Positions 7,120 through 22,840 of a stretch of 64,000 nt of DNA are shown here, one piece after another (within the stretch, counting starts at the first letter, position 1; each line of letters begins with the position of its first letter). A program made the translations under genes and the position numbers. This stretch comes from Myrmaecium sp. VS I D KN 1. Lineage: Eukaryota > Ascomycota > Dothideomycetes > Valsariales > Valsariaceae. The notes beneath the pieces were generated by a model, which had not been told where the DNA came from, searched no databases, and worked only from the letters and a program-made list of their open reading frames with translations. Where the stretch lies: positions 124,001-188,000 of the forward strand of contig JADQAV010000025.1 in NCBI GenBank assembly GCA_019775845.1. Direction: 5' to 3'.

Positions 7120-9692
7120 ATGGCGACGCTATCCACCCTCCGCAACAGCCAGTCGATCCACGCCCTTTACCTTTCCTTCTCCTCTCTGCTGCGCGATCGC
7201 ATCGTCCGTAGCTCCCGCACCACCAAGCTCCTCTCCACCCTCGCCTTCATCCTCACCCTCCTCGGCGGCGGCTACAGCACCCGCCGGTGGTATCTCCGTC
7301 GCAAAAAGGAGCGGGAAACCGGCCGGCGCCTGCTCCGCCGCAACTCGGGCTTACGCGGCAAGGACGGTTCGCGCACCATCTACGTCCCCTACCGCAACGC
7401 GACCTCCAAGGTCACCATCTACCCGACCAAGCCGACCACCTTCGATGCCCACCGCCGACTGTTCCTCCAGCCGCCGCGCGCGGCCGGGCTGCGGGATGGG
7501 GACACGCCGCAGGTCCCGCCGCCGCAGACCAAGCCCGGGCTGAACCTGGCGTTCTTGCATCAGTTCCTTAGCCTGCTCAACATCATGGTCCCGCGCTGGA
7601 ACAGCAAGGAGACGGGTCTGCTGTTGAGCCACGGCGCCTTCCTCATGCTGCGGACCTACCTCTCGCTCGTCGTCGCCCGTCTCGACGGCGCGATCGTGCG
7701 CGACCTGGTCGCTGGCAACGGCAAGGGGTTTCTCTGGGGCATCGTCAAGTGGTGCGGCATCGGCAGCCTGGCCTCGTACACCAACGCGATGATCAAGTTC
7801 CTGCAGTCGAAAGTCTCCATCGCCTTCCGCACCCGTCTGACCCGTTACATCCACGACCTCTATCTCAACGGGCATCTCAACTACTACAAGCTGCACAACC
7901 TGGACGGCGGCATGGGCCAAGGCGCGGACCAGTTCATCACGCAAGACCTCACCTTGTTCTGCACGTCCGCCGCCTCCCTCTACTCCTCCCTCGGCAAGCC
8001 GCTCGTCGACCTGTGCGTGTTCAACTACCAGCTCTTTCGGTCCCTCGGGCCGCTCGCCCTGAGCGGGCTGCTCGCCAACTATTTCCTCACCGCCACCATC
8101 CTCCGACGGCTCTCCCCGCCCTTCGGCAAGCTCAAGGCCGTCGAGGGCCGACGGGAAGGCGACTTCCGCGCCCTGCACAGCCGCCTGATCGCCAACGCGG
8201 AGGAGGTCGCCTTCTACGGCGGCGACCAGATGGAGAAGCTGTACCTCGACCGGGGCTTTAAGGAGCTCACCGCGCTGATGGAGAGCATCTACCGGCTCAA
8301 GATCCGCTACAACATGCTCGAGGACTTCGTGCTCAAGTACTCCTGGTCCGCGTTCGGCTACCTGATCACCTCCCTGCCCGTCTTCCTGCCGGCCTGGGGC
8401 GGGCTCGCTGGCGAGGGCGAGGGCGAGGATGCGGGCGCGCTGGGGGAGAAGCACGGCCGCGAGCGCGGCCGCATGAAGGCCTTCATCACCAACAAACGGC
8501 TCATGCTCTCCCTGGCGGACGCGGGCGGACGGATGATGTACAGCATCAAGGACCTGCAGGAGCTGGCGGGGTACACGTCGCGGGTGTACACGCTGATCAG
8601 CACGCTGCACCGGGTGCACGCGCACGCGTACTTCCCCCCACCGTCATCGGCCGCCGCCGCCGCCGAGCTGTACAGCCTCGCGGACATCCAGGGCACCGTG
8701 CACCTCGGCTTCGACGGGGTGCGGCTGGAGAACGTGCCGGTGGTGGCGCCGGCGCCGCGGTACCCGCTGGGCGGCACGGAGCTGATCGATCGTCTGAGCT
8801 TCATCGTGCATGCGGGCGAGCACCTGCTGATCACGGGCCCGAACGGGGCGGGCAAGAGCGCGGTCGCGCGCATCGTGGCCGGGCTGTGGCCGGCGTATCG
8901 CGGGCTGGTGAGTCGGCCGCGCTGCGTGGGCGTCGACGGCATCATGTTCCTGCCGCAGCGGCCGTACCTGAGCGCGGGCACGCTGCGCGACCAGGTCATC
9001 TACCCGCACACCGAGGTCGACATGAGGACGGCGGGCCGGCGGGATCGGGAGCTGAGCGCGATCTTGGAGGAGGCGCGGCTGGGGTACCTGCCGGATCGGG
9101 AGGGGGGGTGGGATACGCGGAAGGATTGGAAGGATGTCCTGAGTGGGGGGGAGAAGCAGCGGATGGCGATGGCGCGGCTGTTGTATCATGAGCCCCGGTA
9201 TGCGTTTGTGGACGAGGGGACGAGCGCGGTGAGTAGCGATGTGGAGGGGCTGCTGTACGAGCGGTGCAAGGCGAAGGGGATCAGTGAGTTTTTTCTCCCG
9301 TCCATGGCCCTTGAGACGACAAGCAGTGTTCATTGCTAATCGATGTACCCCATGCGACGGCAGCGCTCATCACGATCTCGACCCGCGCCTCCCTCAAGCG
9401 CTACCACACCTTCACCCTCACCCTCGGCGCCGGCGACCACGGCGACGAGTGGGAGTTCCAGCGCATCGGCACGGCGAGCGAGAAGTCCTCGGTCGAGAAG
9501 GAGCTGCATGAGCTGCGGGAGCGGTTGGCCAAGGTGGAGGAGTGGAAGCGCAGGAGGCAGGAGATAGAGCACGAGCTCAGTAGGGTGTGGGTCGATGGCG
9601 GGGAGGAGTTGGCGGCTCCGCCTGCGTATGTGGAGAAGGAGGCTGAGGGGGCTGAGGAGGGAGGAGAGGGAGAGGGGGATGTGAGTGTATAG
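7120..9692 (+). CDS. Peroxisomal ABCD-family half-transporter
   Basis: Imports very-long-chain or long-chain acyl-CoA into peroxisomes for beta-oxidation, working as a dimer (family role of Pxa1/Pxa2 and ABCD1). There are two exons, 7120-9283 and 9364-9692, with a GTGAGT donor, a TTGCTAATC branch site and a CAG acceptor, giving 830 residues. The N-terminal part has a hydrophobic anchor (about 40-60) and a basic linker, then the ABC_membrane_2 domain (about 150-430). That domain includes the EAA-like peroxisomal motif NAEEVAFYGGDQMEK near 358. The ATPase follows, with Walker A GPNGAGKS near 573, signature LSGGEKQ near 673 and Walker B FVDEGTSAVS. The usual Asp-Glu-Cys after Walker B is Asp-Glu-Gly here. 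The C-terminus is a Glu-rich coiled tail. Whether this is the Pxa1 or the Pxa2 partner is not decided. Confidence 0.92.
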
Positions 9693-10385: not shown

Positions 10386-13300
10386 ATGCCGTCATCCAGC
10401 ACCCCTCCTCCTCCGCCGCCGCCACAACAGTCCCGCGGTCCCCAAGCAGAAGAAGCAAACCAAACCCGCAACGCACCCGCCGTGCCTAATGAAGTCGTCG
10501 CTAGCGCACGGGCAGCAGCGGCGGCCGCGGCGCATGACGAAGGAGCAGAAGGAGCAGAAGGATCGATAGAATCCCACAGGAACAGCGGGCGCGCGGGCGG
10601 CGGCGGCGGAAGCGATGCGGCGGAGGTGGCAGCGGAGCACAGCAGGCAAGGCGGTCACTTGGATGCCGGCGGGCACAGCGGGTCTCAGAATCGCATCGTC
10701 GATGCGGGCCCGGCGCCGGAGGCGTGGCACGATGAGCTTCCCCCGCCGGCGTACAGCGAGGTGTACGGGCAGATTGCCAGCCCGAATGAGGATTTTGGGA
10801 CGCGGGCGGCGGTGACGGGTGAGTGCGACAGTTGAAAAGGCTTGTGTGAATTTGTATAGGAGAGGTGCTAATATCACGTTTCAGATGATGGGCGTGTGGA
10901 TATTCGCATCAACCAGCGAGCTCACAGCCTCACCAACCTTCTCCGACCATCCCTCACGCAAATCCCCAAGATCGAAGAAGCCGAAGTCGCGGCTATCCCG
11001 CCTCCCTTCATCCCCCCCTCCCTCGGCGGCGAACCAGGCCAGCTCCCCCCGCCGCCGCTCAACGTGGTGATCCACGTCGTCGGCTCGCGCGGGGACGTGC
11101 AGCCCTTCGTGGCGCTGGGCAAGGTGCTCAAGGACACGTACCAGCACCGGGTGCGGCTGGCCACGCATCCGGTCTTCCAGTCCTTCGTCGAGGAGAACGG
11201 GCTCGAGTTCTTCAGCATCGGCGGCGACCCGTCCGAGCTCATGGCGTTCATGGTCAAGAACCCGGGCCTGATGCCGGGCTTCGACACCCTCCGCAAGGGC
11301 GATATCGGCAAGCGACGCAAGGGCATCGAGGAGATGATAAAGGGCTGCTGGCGGAGCTGCATCGAAGCGGGCGACGGGACGGGAGCGGGGTTTGGCACGT
11401 CGATGGTGGATAATTGGGTGCGAAGGCTGGGCGGCGGCAGCACCGATGCTCCAACGCACGACATTCCCGGCGCCGCGGACGAGCGGCCCTTCATCGCCGA
11501 CGCCATCATCGCGAACCCACCGTCGTTCGCGCACATCCACTGCGCCGAGAAGCTCGGCGTGCCGCTGCACATGATGTTCACGATGCCGTGGTCGCCCACG
11601 CAGCAGTTCCCCCACCCGCTGGCGAACATCCAGAAGACGAACGCGGACGCGAGCGTGACGAACTTCATGTCCTACACCATGGTCGACATGCTCACCTGGC
11701 AGGGGCTCGGCGACGTCATCAACCGGTTCCGGCGGGAGACGCTGGCGCTGGAGCCGCTCAGCCTGATGTGGGCGCCCGGCATCCTCGCCCGCCTCCGCAT
11801 CCCCTGGACCTACTGCTGGTCCCCCGCGCTGATCCCCAAGCCGAAGGATTGGGGCCCGCACATCGCCATCTCCGGCTTCTACTTCCTCAACCTCGCGTCC
11901 AACTACCAGCCCGACCCGGAGCTGGCGGCGTTCCTGGCCGCGGGACCGCCGCCGGTGTACATCGGCTTCGGCTCGATCGTGGTGGACGACCCGAACGCCA
12001 TGACCAAGCTGATCTTCGACGCCGTCCGCAAGACGGGCCAGCGAGCGCTCGTGTCGAAGGGCTGGGGCGGCCTCGGCGCCGAGGATCTGGACAAGCCCGA
12101 CAACGTGTTCATGCTCGGCAACTGCCCGCACGACTGGCTCTTCCAACACGTGTCCTGCGTCGTGCATCACGGCGGCGCGGGCACGACCGCGGCCGGCATC
12201 GCGTGCGGACGTCCGACCGTGATCGTCCCTTTCTTCGGCGACCAGCCGTTCTGGGGCGCGATGGTGGCCAGAGCCGGCGCCGGCCCGGAACCGATCCCGC
12301 ATAAGCGGCTGACGGCCGACAATCTGGCTGAGGCGATCCAAGAGGCGCTCAAGCCGAGTAGCCTGGAGCGCGCGCAGGAACTGGCGAACAAGATTGCTGC
12401 GGAGAAAGGGACGGACACGGGAGCGGCGACGTTCCATCAGATGCTGAAGGTGGACGAACTACGCTGCGCCGTTGTCCCTTCACACGCGGCGGTCTGGAGA
12501 CTCAAGCGGACGCAGGTCAGGCTGAGTGCCATGGCCGCTGCTGTGCTCGCGCATGCTGGCGAGTTGGACTTTGGCCAGCTGAAGCTCTACCGGTCACGAG
12601 AGTACGACACGGATCAGGGACCCGCGGACCCCATCACCGGTGGGTCGTCTGCTATCGTTGGCACGGTTACGACGATGTTGATGGGGGTTGCGGATTTTCC
12701 GAAGGAGACCCTTAAGGCTTTGCGTATTCATCCGGATGCGGCGGCGAACAGGAAAGCGGCTGCGGAGGGCGTGCGACTGACTGACTCGAAGACTGGAACG
12801 TCTTCTGACAGCACACAACCCAAGAAGTGTTCTCCTTTGCTTTCGCCGACGTCCTCGGGGGATCAATCACCCGGTTCAACCAGTCAAGATCGCGCTGGGC
12901 CCTCCACGAGTAGAAGGGACAAGTGGGAACAGCCTCTGGACCCGTTCACCGCAGCAGCCGCACTCGACACCGGCAAAGGGGTGGCGAGGATCGTCGGCGC
13001 CGGGTTGCGCTCGCCGATGGAGTTCACTCTCGGCCTCTCCAAGGGCTTCCACAACACGCCGAAGCTGTACGGGGAGCAGGTGAGGCAGGTGGACAAGGTG
13101 ACAGATTTAAAGAGCGGGCTGAAGGTTGCCGGAAAGGAGTTCGGATACGGCTTGTACGACGGCATCACCGGGCTCGTGATGGATCCGTACCGGGGCGCGA
13201 AGAAAGAGGGCGTGGAGGGTTTCTTCAAGGGGATGGGCAAGGGGCTCGCGGGCGTGTACCTCAAGTCGTCCGCGGGCGCGTTCGCGCTGCCGGGCTACGC

Positions 13301-14867
13301 GTTCAAGGGCGTGTACAAGGAGCTGGCGAAGCCGTTCGGCGAGAACGCGACGAACTACATCATCGCGGCGCGGACGGCGCAGGGGTACGCGCAGGCGCAG
13401 GCGCTGTCGGCGGAGGCGCGGGCGGCGATCGTGTACGCGTGGCGGGCGATCAAGCGCGACCTGAAGGTGAAGAAACACCCCGGGGAGACGCAGATCGAGG
13501 CGCTGCAAACGCTGCTCGACAGCCATCGCGCGAAGATGGAGGAGCGCGACCGCCGCCGCCGCAAGGGGAAGTCGCCGCTGCCACGGCCCGGCCGAGCGAG
13601 CTCCTCGGCCAGCGGTGGGCGCATCGGGCAGGTGCTACGCGGTGTGATGCCGTCTGCGCCAACGGGGCAGGCAACGGGGACGGCAACGGGAACAACGCAG
13701 CGCTCTGGCGATGACTTGGGACCTGGGCTGTCGAGCGACTCGACAAACGCGTCCTCGGTGAATAGCTCAAGTAGCGCGCCGCTGCCTCCTCCCCGGCACC
13801 CTTATAGCGTTGCTCGCCGACCTGTGCCGGACCGCTCAGGCTCTACCACTGCTACATCGGTTTCTTCTCATCCACGATCCAACTCGACCGCTGCGAACGA
13901 GCGCAAATCTTCATTTGCACATCATAACCCAACTGAAGAGGAAGACGACCCGGAACTCGCCATGGCGCTCGCGCAGTCTTTAGAGGACCAAAGACCCGGA
14001 CAGCAAACCGGTATCATAGGGGGCGATGGACCTGCAATTGCGTGGCCGCCCCTTCCAGGAACCATCTCCAACGAAGGCGAAGCCGCTGCCCCTGCCGCTG
14101 CCCCTACCCCTGCCGAAACCCGGCCCACAGCCGCCGAAGACGACGAAGACACCCTATTCGAGCGCGCAATCCAAGCCAGCATCACCGAACTCCAACGCAA
14201 CCCACCCGGTCCCGGCGAGGAGGACGAGGAAGCCGCGCTGCAACGCGCCATCGACGCGAGCAAAGCCGAGGCCCACAGCTCCGGCGCGTCCGCAGAGGAG
14301 CAGCAAGCGCTCGAAGAAGTCCTCCGACGCAGTCTCGCGGAGCAGAAGCTCCGTCGTCGCCGTCGCCGCCGCCGCAAGCAGAAAGCACCCCGCATCCGCA
14401 GCTCCGACAGCGAGTGGGACAGCAGCACCGCGGACGCGGACGACGTCGTCACGAGCGCAGCCGAGGAGGACGAAGAAGGGGAACCCGTCTTCACCGCCGG
14501 CGACACCGACACCGACTTCTCCTCCGACGACGACGAGGAGCTGCAGGCCGCGCTGGAAGCGTCGCGGCGCGCGCCTGCGGCGCCGGATCCGCGCCAGCGC
14601 GAGGCGGAGGAGGCGGAGATGCTGCGCCGCGCGATGGAGGAGAGTCGGCGGGAGGAGGAGGCGGCGAGGGTCAGGGAGGAGGAGGAGCGTAGGCAGATGG
14701 AGTTTGTGCGCCGGCAGAGCTTAATGGATGAGGAGGTGCGGAGGGCGGCGAGGGAGGGGAGGCCGCCGAGGCCGCTGGAGGAGATGGGGGAGGGGAGTGG
14801 GAGTGCGGAGGGTGAGGAGGATGAGATGCCGCCGCCTTATGCGGAGGTTGGGAGGGAGAGGTTTTGA
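10386..14867 (+). CDS. Sterol 3-beta-glucosyltransferase with VPS13-like middle and UIM tail
   Basis: Transfers glucose from UDP-glucose to sterols (family role). There are two exons, 10386-10818 and 10885-14867; donor GTGAGT, branch GTGCTAATATC, acceptor TCAG; 1471 residues. An Ala/Pro-rich N-terminus with a PPPAYSEV peptide is followed by the GT28 N-domain (HVVGSRGDVQPF near 203) and the UDP-sugar domain (HHGGAGTTAAGIACGRP near 570). No PH/GRAM domains, unlike Atg26. About 835-985 contains GITGLVMDPYRGAKKEG and GFFKGMGKGL. These resemble the C-terminal amphipathic segment of VPS13/ATG2. The tail (about 1160-1410) carries acidic helices of the form LxxAxxxS, matching ubiquitin-interacting motifs, and a run of eight Arg. 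The enzyme call is firm; the middle and tail assignments are by motif similarity. Confidence 0.88.
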
Positions 14868-15168: not shown

Positions 15169-16603
15169 TCACGCCTTCGGCCTCCCCGCCCTCCCCCTCA
15201 AAATCCATGGCCGGCGCTCCCAAAACTCATCCTTAATAATATCAACATGCTCGACAGCAATCCGCGCTTTCAGCCGTCGCTTGCGCTCCTTCTCCGCCGC
15301 CGTCTTCGAGAGCGGGTCCGGGTGCTCTGCCACATCATCATCCTCGTCATCATCGCGGGTGCTCGACGAAGGAGCGGTGTCCGTGGCGGCGGATGAGGGT
15401 TTCGGGTCCTCGAGTTGGTACTATTTTCGATGTCAGAGAAAGGTCAGGTTGATTAAAACGCGGGGAGCGACGTACATCCCGAAACACCACGCTGCCTTTC
15501 TTATACATCGCCGGCTCGTCATTGTAATTAATCCCAAAGCGAGCGAAAAGGATCTCATTCTTATCCGCCGCATACGTGCCCATAAGCGCCTTCTCCGCGG
15601 CCGTGGCGTCCAGGCCCCCCTGCTGGACCAGCGCCCAGAAGGTCGTGTTGTAGAGGTTGTTGATGTGGCCTGGAGGCGCGAGCGGGGTGGTCAGCGATGA
15701 ACAGACGGTGAAGGGAGGGGTGATAGGTGGGAATGTGGGGACACCCACAGTCGACTTGTCGCCAGCTCATGTAGTCCCGCAGGTTGCGCGTGGTCGGGTA
15801 GAGCACGGCGCGGCCGTCGAAGCTGGGGAGCGGCGGGGAGAGCGGTTTGCTGGGGAAGTGGGTGGGCCAGAGGTGGGTGTAGTAGGAGGTGAAGGTGGAG
15901 ACGATGGTGCTGGTTAGTTTGCTGTGTGCGGCGTTCGCGTCAGTGAGGGACTCTAGGCGTATGGCCACTGGTGGCATGTTTGGTCGATGCCCATATGGAA
16001 GGCTTCTTTCCATGGGGGGACGACAGGCTTACCTCGCTCTCCTCTCGAACAACGCGCAGTCCCTGTGGAAGACAAAACTACATCCATGTGAGCGACGCTT
16101 CATGTGGGCGAAAGGATGCCTCTCCCCATACCTGAACTCATCACTGACACCATACGCCAGCACCAGTTCCGGCAGCTCGGTCATGACCCCCTTCGCCGCG
16201 GCGTTCATGAGGTCCAGCGCCCGCCGGTCGTTCGGCTTCTCGAACTCATATTTTGCGGTCAATCTGAGAAGAGAAACGGCAGAGAAAAAATTCTTTAGCA
16301 CGCGAATAGAGACAGAAGCACTGAACAAGACGAGACAAGATCGAAAAAGAAAAAAAGAGAAACTCGATAGAAGAAGACAATGCCCAGAAGAAAGAAAGAA
16401 AAACCTAACAAGAGAACAAAAAAAGGGTGAAGCAGACGGGTTTCTCACTTGTGGAAGCCTCGGCCATCGATCCGCACGACGATCCAGGTATTAGGGAGCA
16501 GGATGTCGGGCTGCTCAAACGATTTCACGTATTCATATCTGTTCGAGCCTTAGCAAGGTAAGGTGCAAAAGGGGGGCTAGGTTTTATACTTGGAATTGGC
16601 CAT
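15169..16603 (-). CDS. THG1: tRNA-His guanylyltransferase
   Basis: Adds the essential G(-1) to the 5' end of tRNA-His. There are seven exons on the minus strand: 16603-16590, 16538-16449, 16263-16132, 16077-16033, 15921-15749, 15669-15476 and 15420-15169. They encode 299 residues. Every junction restores the frame and gives family motifs: MANSKYEYVKSF at the start, RIDGRGFH and GVSDEFSF (the two metal-binding Asp segments), [12 protein letters not shown], and [11 protein letters not shown]. The C-terminal exon ends with a fungal-type [17 protein letters not shown] segment. The first exon is only 14 nt. Its donor is GTATAA, so the start codon lies in a separate tiny exon. RPB1 lies upstream on the same strand. 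Confidence 0.93.
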
Positions 16604-17353: not shown

Positions 17354-20300
17354 TTAGTCTTGACGAGGCGACCTAGGTTTTTGTTAGCGGCGAATCGAAC
17401 AAAATTTTCCATAGATTCAAACTTACGTCGGAGAGTATTTCGGCGAGGTGGGCGACCACTTCGGCGAAGCCGCCCCGGGCGAATACTTGGGCGACGTCGG
17501 CGAATATGCGTTGCCAGGGCTCGTCGGACTGTACATCGGGCTCGTAGGGCTGAAGTTGGGAGAAGTCGGCGAGCGCCTGTCGCTCCCTCCACCAAACGCA
17601 GGGCTCGTAGGGCTGTACATTGGTGAAGTGGGGCTGAAGGCAGGTGATGTCGGGCTGTAACGCGGGGAAGTCGCCTTGAGACGAGCGGGCGATGTAGGGC
17701 TAAAGCTCGGCGACGTAGGTGAATAGCCAGGAGAGGTAGGTGAATAGCTTGGCGATGTCGGAGAATACGAAGGCGAGGTGGGCGAGGTGCTGGCACCATA
17801 GGCGGGAGAAGAGGGAGAGTACGTCGGCGATGTAGGAGAGAACGATGGGCTGGTGGCGGCGAAACTGGGAGAGGTGGCGCCGAAGCGAGGGCTTGTCATC
17901 CCCATACCCGGTGAAGTCGGAGAGTAACCGGGAGATGACGGGGAAAAGCCTGGTGACGACGGGCTTTGGCTGAAAGGACTTGTGGGAGCATAACCAGGGC
18001 TACGTCCACCCATGTACGGGCTCATTGCGCCGTCACCGAATCCACCACCACCGTAAGCAGTGAATCCTCCAGACTCGTCCATGCCAGCTTGTACCATTGG
18101 CGAGAAGGAAGCTCCGTAATCGGGTCCCGCGAAAGCCCCTTCGTGGGAAGGAGATCCAAGATCGTAAGGCGTAGCCGCGCCGCCCAGATCGGCGAAGCCG
18201 GATGCAGCCGCGAGACCTGGCATAAGAGCTGAAGCATTCGAGGCTTGCAGCGTCTTGAGCATCTCCTCATCCAACAAGACATCCATCTCGCCAGTGCCGA
18301 GAGGAGCAAGTTGACCAAGCATGATGTTCTCAGATACACCTCTACAATCGTCCAGTTCACCGCAGGAGGCAGCATCCAGAAGAATCTCGACAGTCTCTTC
18401 GAATGAACAGCGCATAAGAGCACCCGTGTCGTTACGGTTGATGCCATGGCGAGTGATGGCCATTAGGGTGCCACGAGCGGTCATGATGTCTACCAAGAGC
18501 GCTAAATGACGGTGGTTGACGTACGAACCATCGAAAGCCAGAACGTTGGTCAGCTCCTTCATGAGCAGAGCTCGGGTTGCCTCAATGCCCATAGTTTCGA
18601 AAATTTCCTGGAACGAGTTTGTCGTGGTATGAACCGAGTCAACGCCTTCAGCTACAAGCACATCGCGGAAAGCGGTGCCGCTAGTGTCGAGGAACCATTC
18701 TGTACATCCCGGATCATCCTTGATCTTGATCAGCTCGTTGTCATCGCCACGTCGAACCTTGGGCCGTTTGTCGATAAAGGCACGCTCGATACCCTTGATA
18801 CCACGCAGGGTGACATCATCCAGCAAATGGTTCTCAAGCTTTCTCATCCATGTCTCGTCACGGTTTTCCTCCTCATCTTCGTCTTGCCCCTTCAGGAAAC
18901 TCTCATCGTGGATGAAACGGACACGGAGTACCTGCTCGTCCGCGTTTTCATCACTGAAAATGACAGCAAGGTTCGAAGGGAACTGCTCCTTGATCGTAGC
19001 CGCGACGTCTGCAAGAGTCATTCCCTTGTCCAACAGCTTTCGACGACTGCAGGTGATCCTAAGAAGCCACCTAGACTGCAGTTCGACATTCTCGTTCTCT
19101 TCCGGAATCAGGAAGTAAGACTCCACCATGTCCTTGTCAGCCTCGATCACGGTGTCTTCGATGTTAGGATCGTAGTAGAGCTCAACCATTTCCGCAAGAG
19201 ACCGGAGCGTCGTATGCTCTATACGGCTGCGGAGCAGTTTGGCGTCTTCTTGAGTAGCGTTAGGTGTGGACAAGAACACACGCATTGAGGGAGTCTTGAT
19301 GTTCTTAGCCACGTTGAGAATCTCTTTCAGACGTGGAACACCCAAGGTAACGTTCTTAGAAGACACACCAGCAAAATGGAAAGTGTTGAGAGTCATCTGG
19401 GTAGCGGGTTCTCCGACAGACTGAGCGGCCAAGACACCGACCATCTCACCCGGGTTGACATGTGCTCGGAGGAAACGGTTCTCCAAGTCTCCCATGATGT
19501 TTTCAAAAGCGAGCTTGTTGAGCCTGTGCTCTCGAACAAGGCGCTTGAAAGCGAGCTGTGACCGCAGCAGGCATTTGAAGAGCATGGTGGCACTCTCTTG
19601 TGCCTCTTTAGATATAGGATCTTCACCCCGAACTACAACGAGCCTATCCAGCACCTCCCGAACCTTCGTGATTACTTCCACAGGATGAAGGTTGCTGATG
19701 GCATCGTCTTTGATCTTGAACTTCGTCCTAGCGGACCTTATTATGCGGCTGATGTTGAGCGGGAGCTGGTACATCTCATTATCATCGTCGGCATTCTTGA
19801 TGCTGCGCAAGAACTCTCTGTCCTTCTGCAGTTGCTCCCATTCCTCGTCCAGGTGGTGCTGCACGTCGATGTCGCCAGCGATCTCAGCGGCAACTTCGAG
19901 ATCCTGCGGAGGTAACTGAAGTTTAGGGTCTGTGAGATCGACCCGATATTTTTCCCTGAAGACAGAGTCACCACACTTGATGATGTCGATGGGTTGCCCT
20001 TCGATGATAGCGCCATCGAGACCGTCTTCTCCATAGACGAACTGGACGATATCTCCGAGGGAGTTACGAACCGTCCCGTCATACTTGGCCATAACGTCTT
20101 CGAGAGCCTTCACCAATCTTCGCTGGATGTATCCAGTTTCTGCAGTCTTGACGGCGGTATCAATGAGACCTTCGCGACCAGCCATAGCGTGAAAGAAAAA
20201 CTCAGTCGGTGTGAGTCCACGGAGATAGGAGTTCTCCACAAAACCTCTCGATTCTGCAGAGTAATCGTCTTTGGTGAAGTGTGGCAAAGTCCGATATTTG

Positions 20301-22840
20301 AATCCGAAGGGAATACGCTTGCCTTCCACGGCTTGTTGGCCGACAAGAGCGGTCATTTGGGCAATATTGATATCGGAACCTTTTGAGCCGGAAGTTGCCA
20401 TAGCCTTTGCGTTGTTGAGATCCTTCAAACTCTTCGATGCTCGACTACCCGCATTATCACGGGCGCTGTTGAGGGCCTTCTGAACCTTGCTCTCAAAAGT
20501 CTCACGGACGTTCATACCGGGTAACGGCTCCAGCAGGTTCTGTGTAGCTTCTTCCGTAATCTCCTCGACTTCAGCCTTCTCCTTGGCGACGGCGTCCATA
20601 ATCTCCGCGGTTGTGGCCTTATCAGGGACAGTATCGCCAATGCCGATACTGAAACCATTGTGCAACAACCAGTAATTCACGACTCGCTGGGCGCCGTTGA
20701 AGAAGTTGACAGCGGCTTCCCATCCGCTCTCGTTGTAGATGACATGAATAACGCCACCACTGCTAGCACCTACAGTTTTCTTGCTGAACTGCCCGTACAT
20801 GAGCTCGCCATTGCTGATGAGTAAGTTCTGGTCAGCAGAGGGAGAAAAGCCATGCCTTGCTTCGTGTCGAATCAAGTTCAGTCCATCCGGGAGAACTGTG
20901 CTGATGATCTGTTTCCCCGTCCATCGTGGACGAGGCTTAATGATAGCAGGCTGTGGAATTTGTCCGTCCCAATCAGGAACCCACATGAGAATGTTCATGA
21001 CTTGCTCCTTCGTTAGGAAAACGTCGCGTCGGCAAATCTTATAGATACCGCACAAAGTATCTTGAACAATACCCATAAGAGGCCCATTGCGTTGAGGGGA
21101 CACAATATTTAGCGGTACCATGCACAAGTTCATAACCTCTGCTCGAGTTTCCTCTGACTGCGGAACGTGCAAGTTCATCTCGTCACCGTCGAAATCGGCG
21201 TTGTAAGGTGAGGTGACGGACAAGTTTAGTCGGAATGTGGAGTACGGCATCACGCGGACGCGATGACCCATCATGGATTCCTTGTGCAGAGAAGGCTGGC
21301 GGTTGAAAATGATAACGTCGCCATCTACGATATGACGCTCAACCTTCCAACCAAGCTCCAGTCGTATTTCGCCTGCTCGTTTGTGATGCTTGAGGTCGAT
21401 ACGCTGACCATCAGACCGAATGATGTATTTCGCTCCGGGGTGCTCATTAGGACCGTTCCGGACGATGCGATTCAACTTCTCGATGTTGAACCTCGTTACG
21501 GTCTCGGGGTACGTCAACGTACGAGCAATGCTGCGTGGGACACCAACCTCATCCAGAGACAAGTTTGGATCGCCAGTGATGACAGTGCGAGCCGAGAAGT
21601 CCACACGTTTACCCATCAAGTTTCCTCTGAGACGACCCTCCTTACCCTTTAGGCGACCGCGAATCGTCTTGAGAGGTCTACCGGACTTTTGCAGCGCTTG
21701 AGGAAGACCAGCAACATCGTTATCCATATACGTAGCGACGTGGTACTGGAGAAGATTCTCAAACTCCGATTGAATATGCTGTGGAGAACCATCCGTCAGG
21801 CATCGTTGGACGTTCGAGTTTGCACGAATGATATCGCCGAGTTTGTAAGTAAGATCATCCTCGCCACGCATGCCTTGGCCTGTGCCATCGACCGAGATAC
21901 TAGGGCGGACGGGTGGCGGTGGGACAGGCAAGATAGAAATGATCATCCACTCCGGACGAGCGTAGTCCTTGTTCAGTCCTAGGATCTGCAGTGTCTCATC
22001 GGTAAGATTGCGGAAGATGTTGAGCGCATCCTGCGGGGTTATGGGCCTCTGCTCCTCTTTCCCACCGCCTTCTTCTTCATCCCCTTTGGTAGCCTTGAAT
22101 ATAGCCGTAAGCTTGAGGCCATTCTTCTTGATCTGATCTGGTTGCCTGTTGCCACAACCGCCGTGCGAAATCTTTGGTTTTTTCTTCGAGTCCTTTGCAT
22201 CGGGATCAGCTGCATCGAGGTCTGATTCGCAAAACTTCCTGCTAGAGGAGATTCGCCAGATCGCATCAAAGCGCTTCTTTGGGTCACGCATCCTTATAGC
22301 CTTTCGCCAGTCCTCTCGGCTCTAAAAGACGTTAGTAATATGCGGCAGAGAGCTATTTGGAGCTAACACTGACGAAATCGGCTTTGATCAGTCCGCAGTT
22401 ATGGCAGACAGTCTCAAGAAGCTTTTTAATCTTCGTTATGAAACCTGCGTAGATAGTTAGCGAGATGAACCTCCCAAGTATCTTCATAGAGGTTTCGTAC
22501 CAACGTGAAATACCGGGACAGCCAGTTCAATATGTCCGAAGTGACCAGGGCATTCCTGCATGTTTTCTCCGCAAGTTGCGCAGGAAAAGCCACGGTCGAT
22601 GGAACCGAGCTTCGGGTCATTCAGACCTTTCTCACGGGGTTTCTGTTTCTGCTCATCCTGAATGAAATGTCAGATACGAGTCCATCAACGAGGATTCGGG
22701 TGTAAGCAAACCATAGTTTCCGGGTATTGGATGTGCACTACACTCATATTCTTGATCTCCTCCGGAGAGAGCAGGCCGAACTGCACCTCTTGAATGGAGC
22801 GCAGCGGCGCGCTCGACGTGGGGAAATTGAAATTCGACAT
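17354..22840 (-). CDS. RPB1: RNA polymerase II largest subunit
   Basis: Catalytic subunit of RNA polymerase II, nuclear. There are five exons: 22840-22712, 22657-22501, 22444-22374, 22321-17427 and 17372-17354, encoding 1756 residues, the usual size. Exon 2 carries the N-terminal zinc-binding Cys/His set ([17 protein letters not shown]). The active-site Mg motif [10 protein letters not shown] lies near residue 490. Clamp, bridge-helix and jaw regions are complete. The C-terminal domain from about 1553 has roughly 25 heptads, of which about nine keep YSPTSP exactly. The others are degenerate (FSPTSP, YAPTSP, FAATSP) and interrupted by short inserts such as ARLKA and AFGGGSDRR. The last exon adds only SPRQD after an intron with a GTAAGT donor and a CCGCTAAC branch site. 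Confidence 0.97.

Follow-up and report, generated by a model that had tools for sequence, protein, structure and literature searches.

The gene at positions 10386-14867 on the plus strand of the window, as we call the whole 64,000-nucleotide stretch of DNA analyzed here, is one open two-exon gene with a predicted product of 1471 aa. The encoded protein is well-formed. It is probably a UDP-glucose:sterol glucosyltransferase paralogous to Atg26/UGT51, targeted by an ATG_C region and regulated by ubiquitin. Homologies and motif statistics supported the architecture proposed in the initial annotation, namely a sterol glucosyltransferase (SGT) followed by a VPS13-like segment and a UIM array. The activities, location, and regulation of the protein are all predicted from its sequence. 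The features of the gene are listed in Table 1.

Table 1. Features of the predicted SGT gene, in window coordinates
Feature	Position	Strand	Residues (aa)	Remarks
Exon 1	10386..10818	+		N-terminus of low complexity, rich in Pro/Ala/Gly; neither GRAM nor PH matched
PPxY motif 1	10743..10754	+	120-123	ELPPPAYSEV
Predicted intron	10819..10884	+		66 nt; GTGAGT donor, GCTAAT branch-like site, TTTCAG acceptor
Exon 2	10885..14867	+		GT domain, VPS13-like region, UIM tail, stop
GT28/UDPGT sterol glucosyltransferase (GT) domain	11064..12449	+	about 205-666	Pfam and yeast UGT51 match
Region common to the C35 paralog	12603..13571	+	718-1040	
Core homologous to the second of two VPS13 ATG_C stretches	13101..13319	+	884-956	
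UIM 1	13941..13988	+	1164-1179	motif
UIM 2	14142..14189	+	1231-1246	motif
UIM 3	14223..14270	+	1258-1273	motif
UIM 4	14295..14342	+	1282-1297	Val replaces conserved Ala
UIM 5	14526..14573	+	1359-1374	motif
UIM 6	14607..14654	+	1386-1401	motif
PPxY motif 2	14829..14840	+	1460-1463	MPPPYAEV, 8 residues before the C-terminus

Gene Structure and Glucosyltransferase Domain

The main frame, 10896-14867, was uninterrupted over 1323 codons. Six GT-AG introns kept the frame in the stretch tried, which ran from the ATG at 10386 to the main frame; the most canonical of them, 10819-10884, is predicted to join 10386-10818 to the main frame. The unbroken frame and the canonical predicted intron bore out the two-exon gene proposed earlier. 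The extension beyond the GT domain, previously put at about 900 residues, measured about 805.

Pfam matches above the respective cut-offs were obtained for Glyco_transf_28 (62.4 bits), EryCIII-like_C (51.1 bits), and UDPGT (29.1 bits), while Glyco_tran_28_C scored under its own cut-off. The best solved homolog was the yeast sterol 3-beta-glucosyltransferase UGT51 (5xvm) with an E-value of 1e-73. It aligned in two stretches, query residues 30-125 and 172-488, which cover both GT halves. HHGGAGTT in the window protein was aligned with HHGGSGTT in UGT51, and PFFGDQ was identical in both. The combination of a GT28 N-terminal and a UDPGT-like C-terminal domain with UGT51 as the closest solved homolog places the enzyme in the UGT51/UGT80 type. 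Thus, the Pfam matches and the similarity to UGT51 confirmed the assignment as a GT28/UGT sterol glucosyltransferase. A Pfam scan that covered exon 1 as well as the main frame, with E-values up to 10, found neither GRAM nor PH, the two N-terminal domains that characterize Atg26. The initial annotation had contrasted the gene with Atg26-type enzymes on this point.

VPS13-type ATG_C Region

A piece of 238 aa (12882-13595) was compared with the PDB. It matched human VPS13A (E 3e-11) and VPS13C (E 7e-11), and the remaining three of the five matches had E-values of 0.3 or worse. VPS13A and VPS13C were each aligned in two stretches, the stronger of which comprised query residues 75-146 and 74-146, respectively; the second stretch alone was weak (E 0.23 and 6.7). 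A two-sequence profile built from the window gene and its paralog on contig C35 repeated the match to VPS13A and VPS13C with E-values of 3.5e-10 and 3.7e-9.

Own-genome comparisons were made within the one assembly that contains the window (25.66 Mb, 66 contigs). Its size, the short intron, and the genes present point to an ascomycete fungus. Besides itself, the 12882-13595 piece matched contig C35 (two pieces, 37% and 43% identity) and contig C6 (39%). The C6 protein is VPS13, as its fragment carries the domains VAB (residues 1-99) and VPS13_C (residues 618-724). It shared 47% identity over 66 aa with the window segment, and hhalign returned a probability of 96.6 for the pair. The matched residues, 538-603 of the C6 fragment, sit between VAB and VPS13_C. 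This is the position given for ATG_C in VPS13 in the relevant passage of PMC7613979, and the match thus falls in the place of ATG_C. With VPS13 ATG_C homology in an SGT, the window protein belongs to the subgroup of SGTs with an ATG_C region as that passage delineates it.

The initial annotation had likened the segment to both VPS13 and ATG2 and had placed it at residues 835-985. The similarity to VPS13 held, with a core narrower than that range, whereas a direct match to ATG2 did not appear. ATG2 was rejected as the source of the segment, the best E-value in a tblastn search against the genome's own ATG2 locus being 1.7 and none falling below 1. The direct match is to VPS13, and the predicted link to ATG2 runs only through the published ATG_C homology. 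The profile check proposed for the segment came out in part: Pfam, used in a copy without PF09333 (ATG_C), gave no VPS13/ATG family match, and homology was therefore shown by sequence comparison and by the two-sequence profile, both of which did match VPS13. A single-sequence AlphaFold model of residues 830-1040 was all-helical, with a mean pLDDT of 38 that is too poor for use. The highest hydrophobic-moment windows lay near residues 836-842 and 988 in a scan of residues 718-1040 run without a control.

Paralogs and Neighboring Genes

At least three SGT loci are present in the genome: the window gene, one on contig C5, and one on contig C35. The C5 enzyme is Atg26-like: GRAM matches precede its GT domain, and it occupies a separate locus. 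The C35 paralog (L005, 1496-5304, minus strand) combines GT and ATG_C in one enzyme; its gene apparently has several introns, one of which was modeled. By piece, the window GT domain was 51-64% identical to C35 and 41-45% identical to C5. Because of the higher GT identities, the window gene and C35 appear closer to each other than to C5.

In the ATG_C region the C35 paralog was 37-43% identical to the window gene, by piece. It differs in having no UIM array: the six frames of its 8-kb stretch held one relaxed UIM-like match, which lies in its C-terminal 500 aa, and no PPxY occurred in those 500 aa. Since the C35 enzyme lacks both the array and a C-terminal PPxY, the UIM tail is not constant in the GT-ATG_C subgroup. 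A search for relatives in viral_contigs yielded one stretch that fitted a pattern, and none was confirmed.

The upstream neighbor (window 7120-9692, plus strand) encodes a peroxisomal-type half ABC transporter (ABC_membrane_2, E 1.7e-96), the possible last exon of which (9333-9692 frame) also has a PPAY motif. Downstream, frames at about 15350-16448 on the minus strand appear to resemble the tRNA-His guanylyltransferase Thg1, split by introns, and 17426-22291, also on the minus strand, encodes the RNA polymerase II largest subunit Rpb1 with its CTD repeats. The window gene shares its contig with ATG2 (C16:23846-30442, minus strand), at a distance of about 104 kb. The ATG2 frame was read across a single in-frame TGA, which may mark an intron.

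UIM Array in the C-terminal Tail

UIMs follow a pattern of an acidic patch and hydrophobic-xx-Ala-hydrophobic-xx-Ser. The low-complexity tail (residues 1041-1471) harbors six such motifs within residues 1164-1401, five with Ala and one with Val. In all six, the Ser is present and two or more of the five positions before the core are acidic. When the residues of the tail were shuffled, none of 20,000 shuffles reached six motifs (mean 0.037, maximum 2). A slightly laxer pattern was also run over the window as a whole, taking every stop-to-stop frame that reached 100 aa (42,465 residues in total); it gave 12 UIM-like matches, half of which were the tail motifs. A UIM-like match at residue 670, just past the GT domain, was not counted as it lies outside the tail. 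Between any two UIMs, 3-8 of 16 residues agreed, and of the 77 pairs of identical residues other than Met and Trp, 45 used different codons. The array consequently does not look like a fresh DNA duplication.

The Pfam UIM model (PF02809; gathering cut-off 21 bits) stayed under its cut-off in every piece, at 6.8 to 20.7 bits. The whole ORF scored 12.3 bits, 13596-14864 scored 6.8, 13911-14714 scored 19.2, and three short pieces scored 20.7, 13.5, and 12.9. In two pieces an unrelated family had a better E-value, Dishevelled (0.00067) in one and SART-1 (0.00049) in the other. In a genome-wide six-frame UIM search the tail, represented by UIM 3, was the lowest of the 11 places listed (14.9 bits, E 1.36). 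The charged low-complexity background may depress the UIM score of HMMER. The several UIM-like helices noticed initially were thus upheld by the motif statistics and not by the Pfam cut-off. As judged from the motifs, the tail likely binds ubiquitin.

PPxY Motifs and Possible Modes of Regulation

Each of the two low-complexity ends carries one PPxY motif, a type of motif bound by Rsp5/NEDD4 ligases. These motifs do not figure in the initial annotation. At least one PPxY arose by chance in 2.9% and 1.5% of the shuffles of the N- and C-terminal ends, respectively. A third PPxY (residue 500) was not counted because it belongs to the GT fold, where it was aligned with the VYIGFGS strand of UGT51. 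The combination of PPxY and UIM motifs hints at a ubiquitin-regulated enzyme, which is suggestive only.

According to the preferred reading of a ubiquitin-regulated, ATG_C-targeted SGT, the GT domain would make steryl glucoside, as its homology to UGT51 implies, and the ATG_C helices, by analogy with VPS13/ATG2, would bring the enzyme to a membrane such as that of lipid droplets, endosomes, or a contact site. The six UIMs would give the tail avidity for ubiquitin, and an Rsp5-type ligase would be recruited through the two PPxY motifs. The enzyme might then either be held on ubiquitin-marked membranes or itself become mono-ubiquitinated in a coupled manner, as in Eps15, and be switched or moved. 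A bolder form of the proposal, which we put forward as a rather speculative idea, is that this sterol-modifying enzyme acts as a multivalent ubiquitin receptor: PPxY motifs would recruit an Rsp5-type ligase, the UIMs would read the ubiquitin it attaches, ATG_C would hold the protein at the membrane, and steryl glucoside would be made only on ubiquitin-marked organelles.

Among the alternatives, the protein could be an adaptor or substrate of Rsp5/NEDD4, that is, a partner of the ligase in endosomal sorting in which sterol glucosylation tunes the membrane. Two PPxY motifs next to six UIMs would suit such a role. In yeast, arrestin-related proteins bind Rsp5 through their PPxY motifs and serve as its adaptors, as described in a passage of PMC3439951; for Eps15, coupled mono-ubiquitination by Nedd4 depends on UIMs, as stated in part of PMC1832185. 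However, the relevant parts of both papers deal with proteins other than the window enzyme, and a PPxY motif consists of four residues only, here in Pro-containing ends. We regard this alternative as possible but tentative.

Unlikely, in our estimation, is a function in selective autophagy, in which the UIM tail would recognize ubiquitinated organelles such as peroxisomes and sterols would be glucosylated on the engulfing membrane, making the protein a ubiquitin-guided Atg26. The idea draws on Pichia pastoris, where Atg26, an SGT, is needed for pexophagy and is recruited by its GRAM domain through PtdIns4P (both from a passage of PMC3320016), and the peroxisomal-type ABC transporter gene upstream is a weak neighborhood hint in the same direction. 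Yet the genome already has its own GRAM-type SGT, and no direct homology to its own ATG2 was found. The 21 [WFY]xx[LIV] cores of the Atg8-binding type in 1471 aa are too many to carry meaning. The PPxY motifs make regulation of the Rsp5/NEDD4 type at least as good an explanation as autophagy of ubiquitinated cargo.

It is more doubtful still that the UIM-like repeats are nothing but a charged, Ala-rich helical tail that does not bind ubiquitin. The low-complexity composition (20% Asp plus Glu in residues 1041-1471), the weak matches to the unrelated SART-1 and Dishevelled, and the UIM scores under the Pfam cut-off would all fit this view. Against it stand the six motifs with their acidic residues and Ser, which composition-preserving shuffling did not reproduce, and the concentration of half of the UIM-like matches of the window in this tail. 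Finally, a wrong gene model, with the GT-ATG_C enzyme and the tail on separate transcripts, is very improbable given the unbroken 1323-codon frame that holds the motifs and the C35 paralog that likewise continues from GT into ATG_C.

Comparison with Known Systems

Fungal SGTs that carry a region of homology to the ATG_C of VPS13/ATG2 have already been described (Levine 2022, PMC7613979, citing Grille et al. 2010, in the passage on these enzymes), which within the open-access literature searched was the only source to state the SGT-ATG_C fusion. Because it is published there, the GT-ATG_C fusion is the known part of the finding. No report of a UIM-bearing sterol glucosyltransferase was found in the open-access literature. 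As far as could be tested, and within the open-access literature searched, the UIM array with PPxY motifs on a GT-ATG_C enzyme is a new variant. A UIM label may be attached to some fungal sterol transferases in database records. If such records exist, the tail is already known in databases too.

In passages of a recent review of fungal steryl glucosides, SGTs are presented as GRAM-PH-catalytic proteins (PMC9698648), and neither "Vps13" nor "ubiquitin" occurs as a word start in its main text. Beyond a GRAM-type SGT, the present genome possesses two GT-ATG_C enzymes, one of them with a likely ubiquitin-binding tail. If this is real, ubiquitin would directly position a lipid-modifying enzyme, and ubiquitin signaling would be linked to membrane sterol chemistry.

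The window protein has its sterol glucosyltransferase domain in common with yeast Atg26/UGT51 (5xvm, 5gl5). To our knowledge, Atg26 has neither an ATG_C region nor a UIM tail. Atg26 possesses an N-terminal GRAM-PH, as given in part of PMC9698648, whereas none was found in the window protein. The ATG_C region is shared with the fungal SGTs of Levine 2022, the passage on which in PMC7613979 mentions neither UIM nor PPxY motifs. An ATG_C stretch is also common to human VPS13A/C and the VPS13 on contig C6; in contrast to VPS13, the window protein gave no Pfam match to the VAB and C-terminal domains, and no lipid-transfer bridge was seen. UIM motifs, finally, are shared with the UIM-bearing ubiquitin receptors Eps15, epsin, and Hrs, from which the window protein differs in that its UIMs are fused to a predicted lipid-modifying enzyme.
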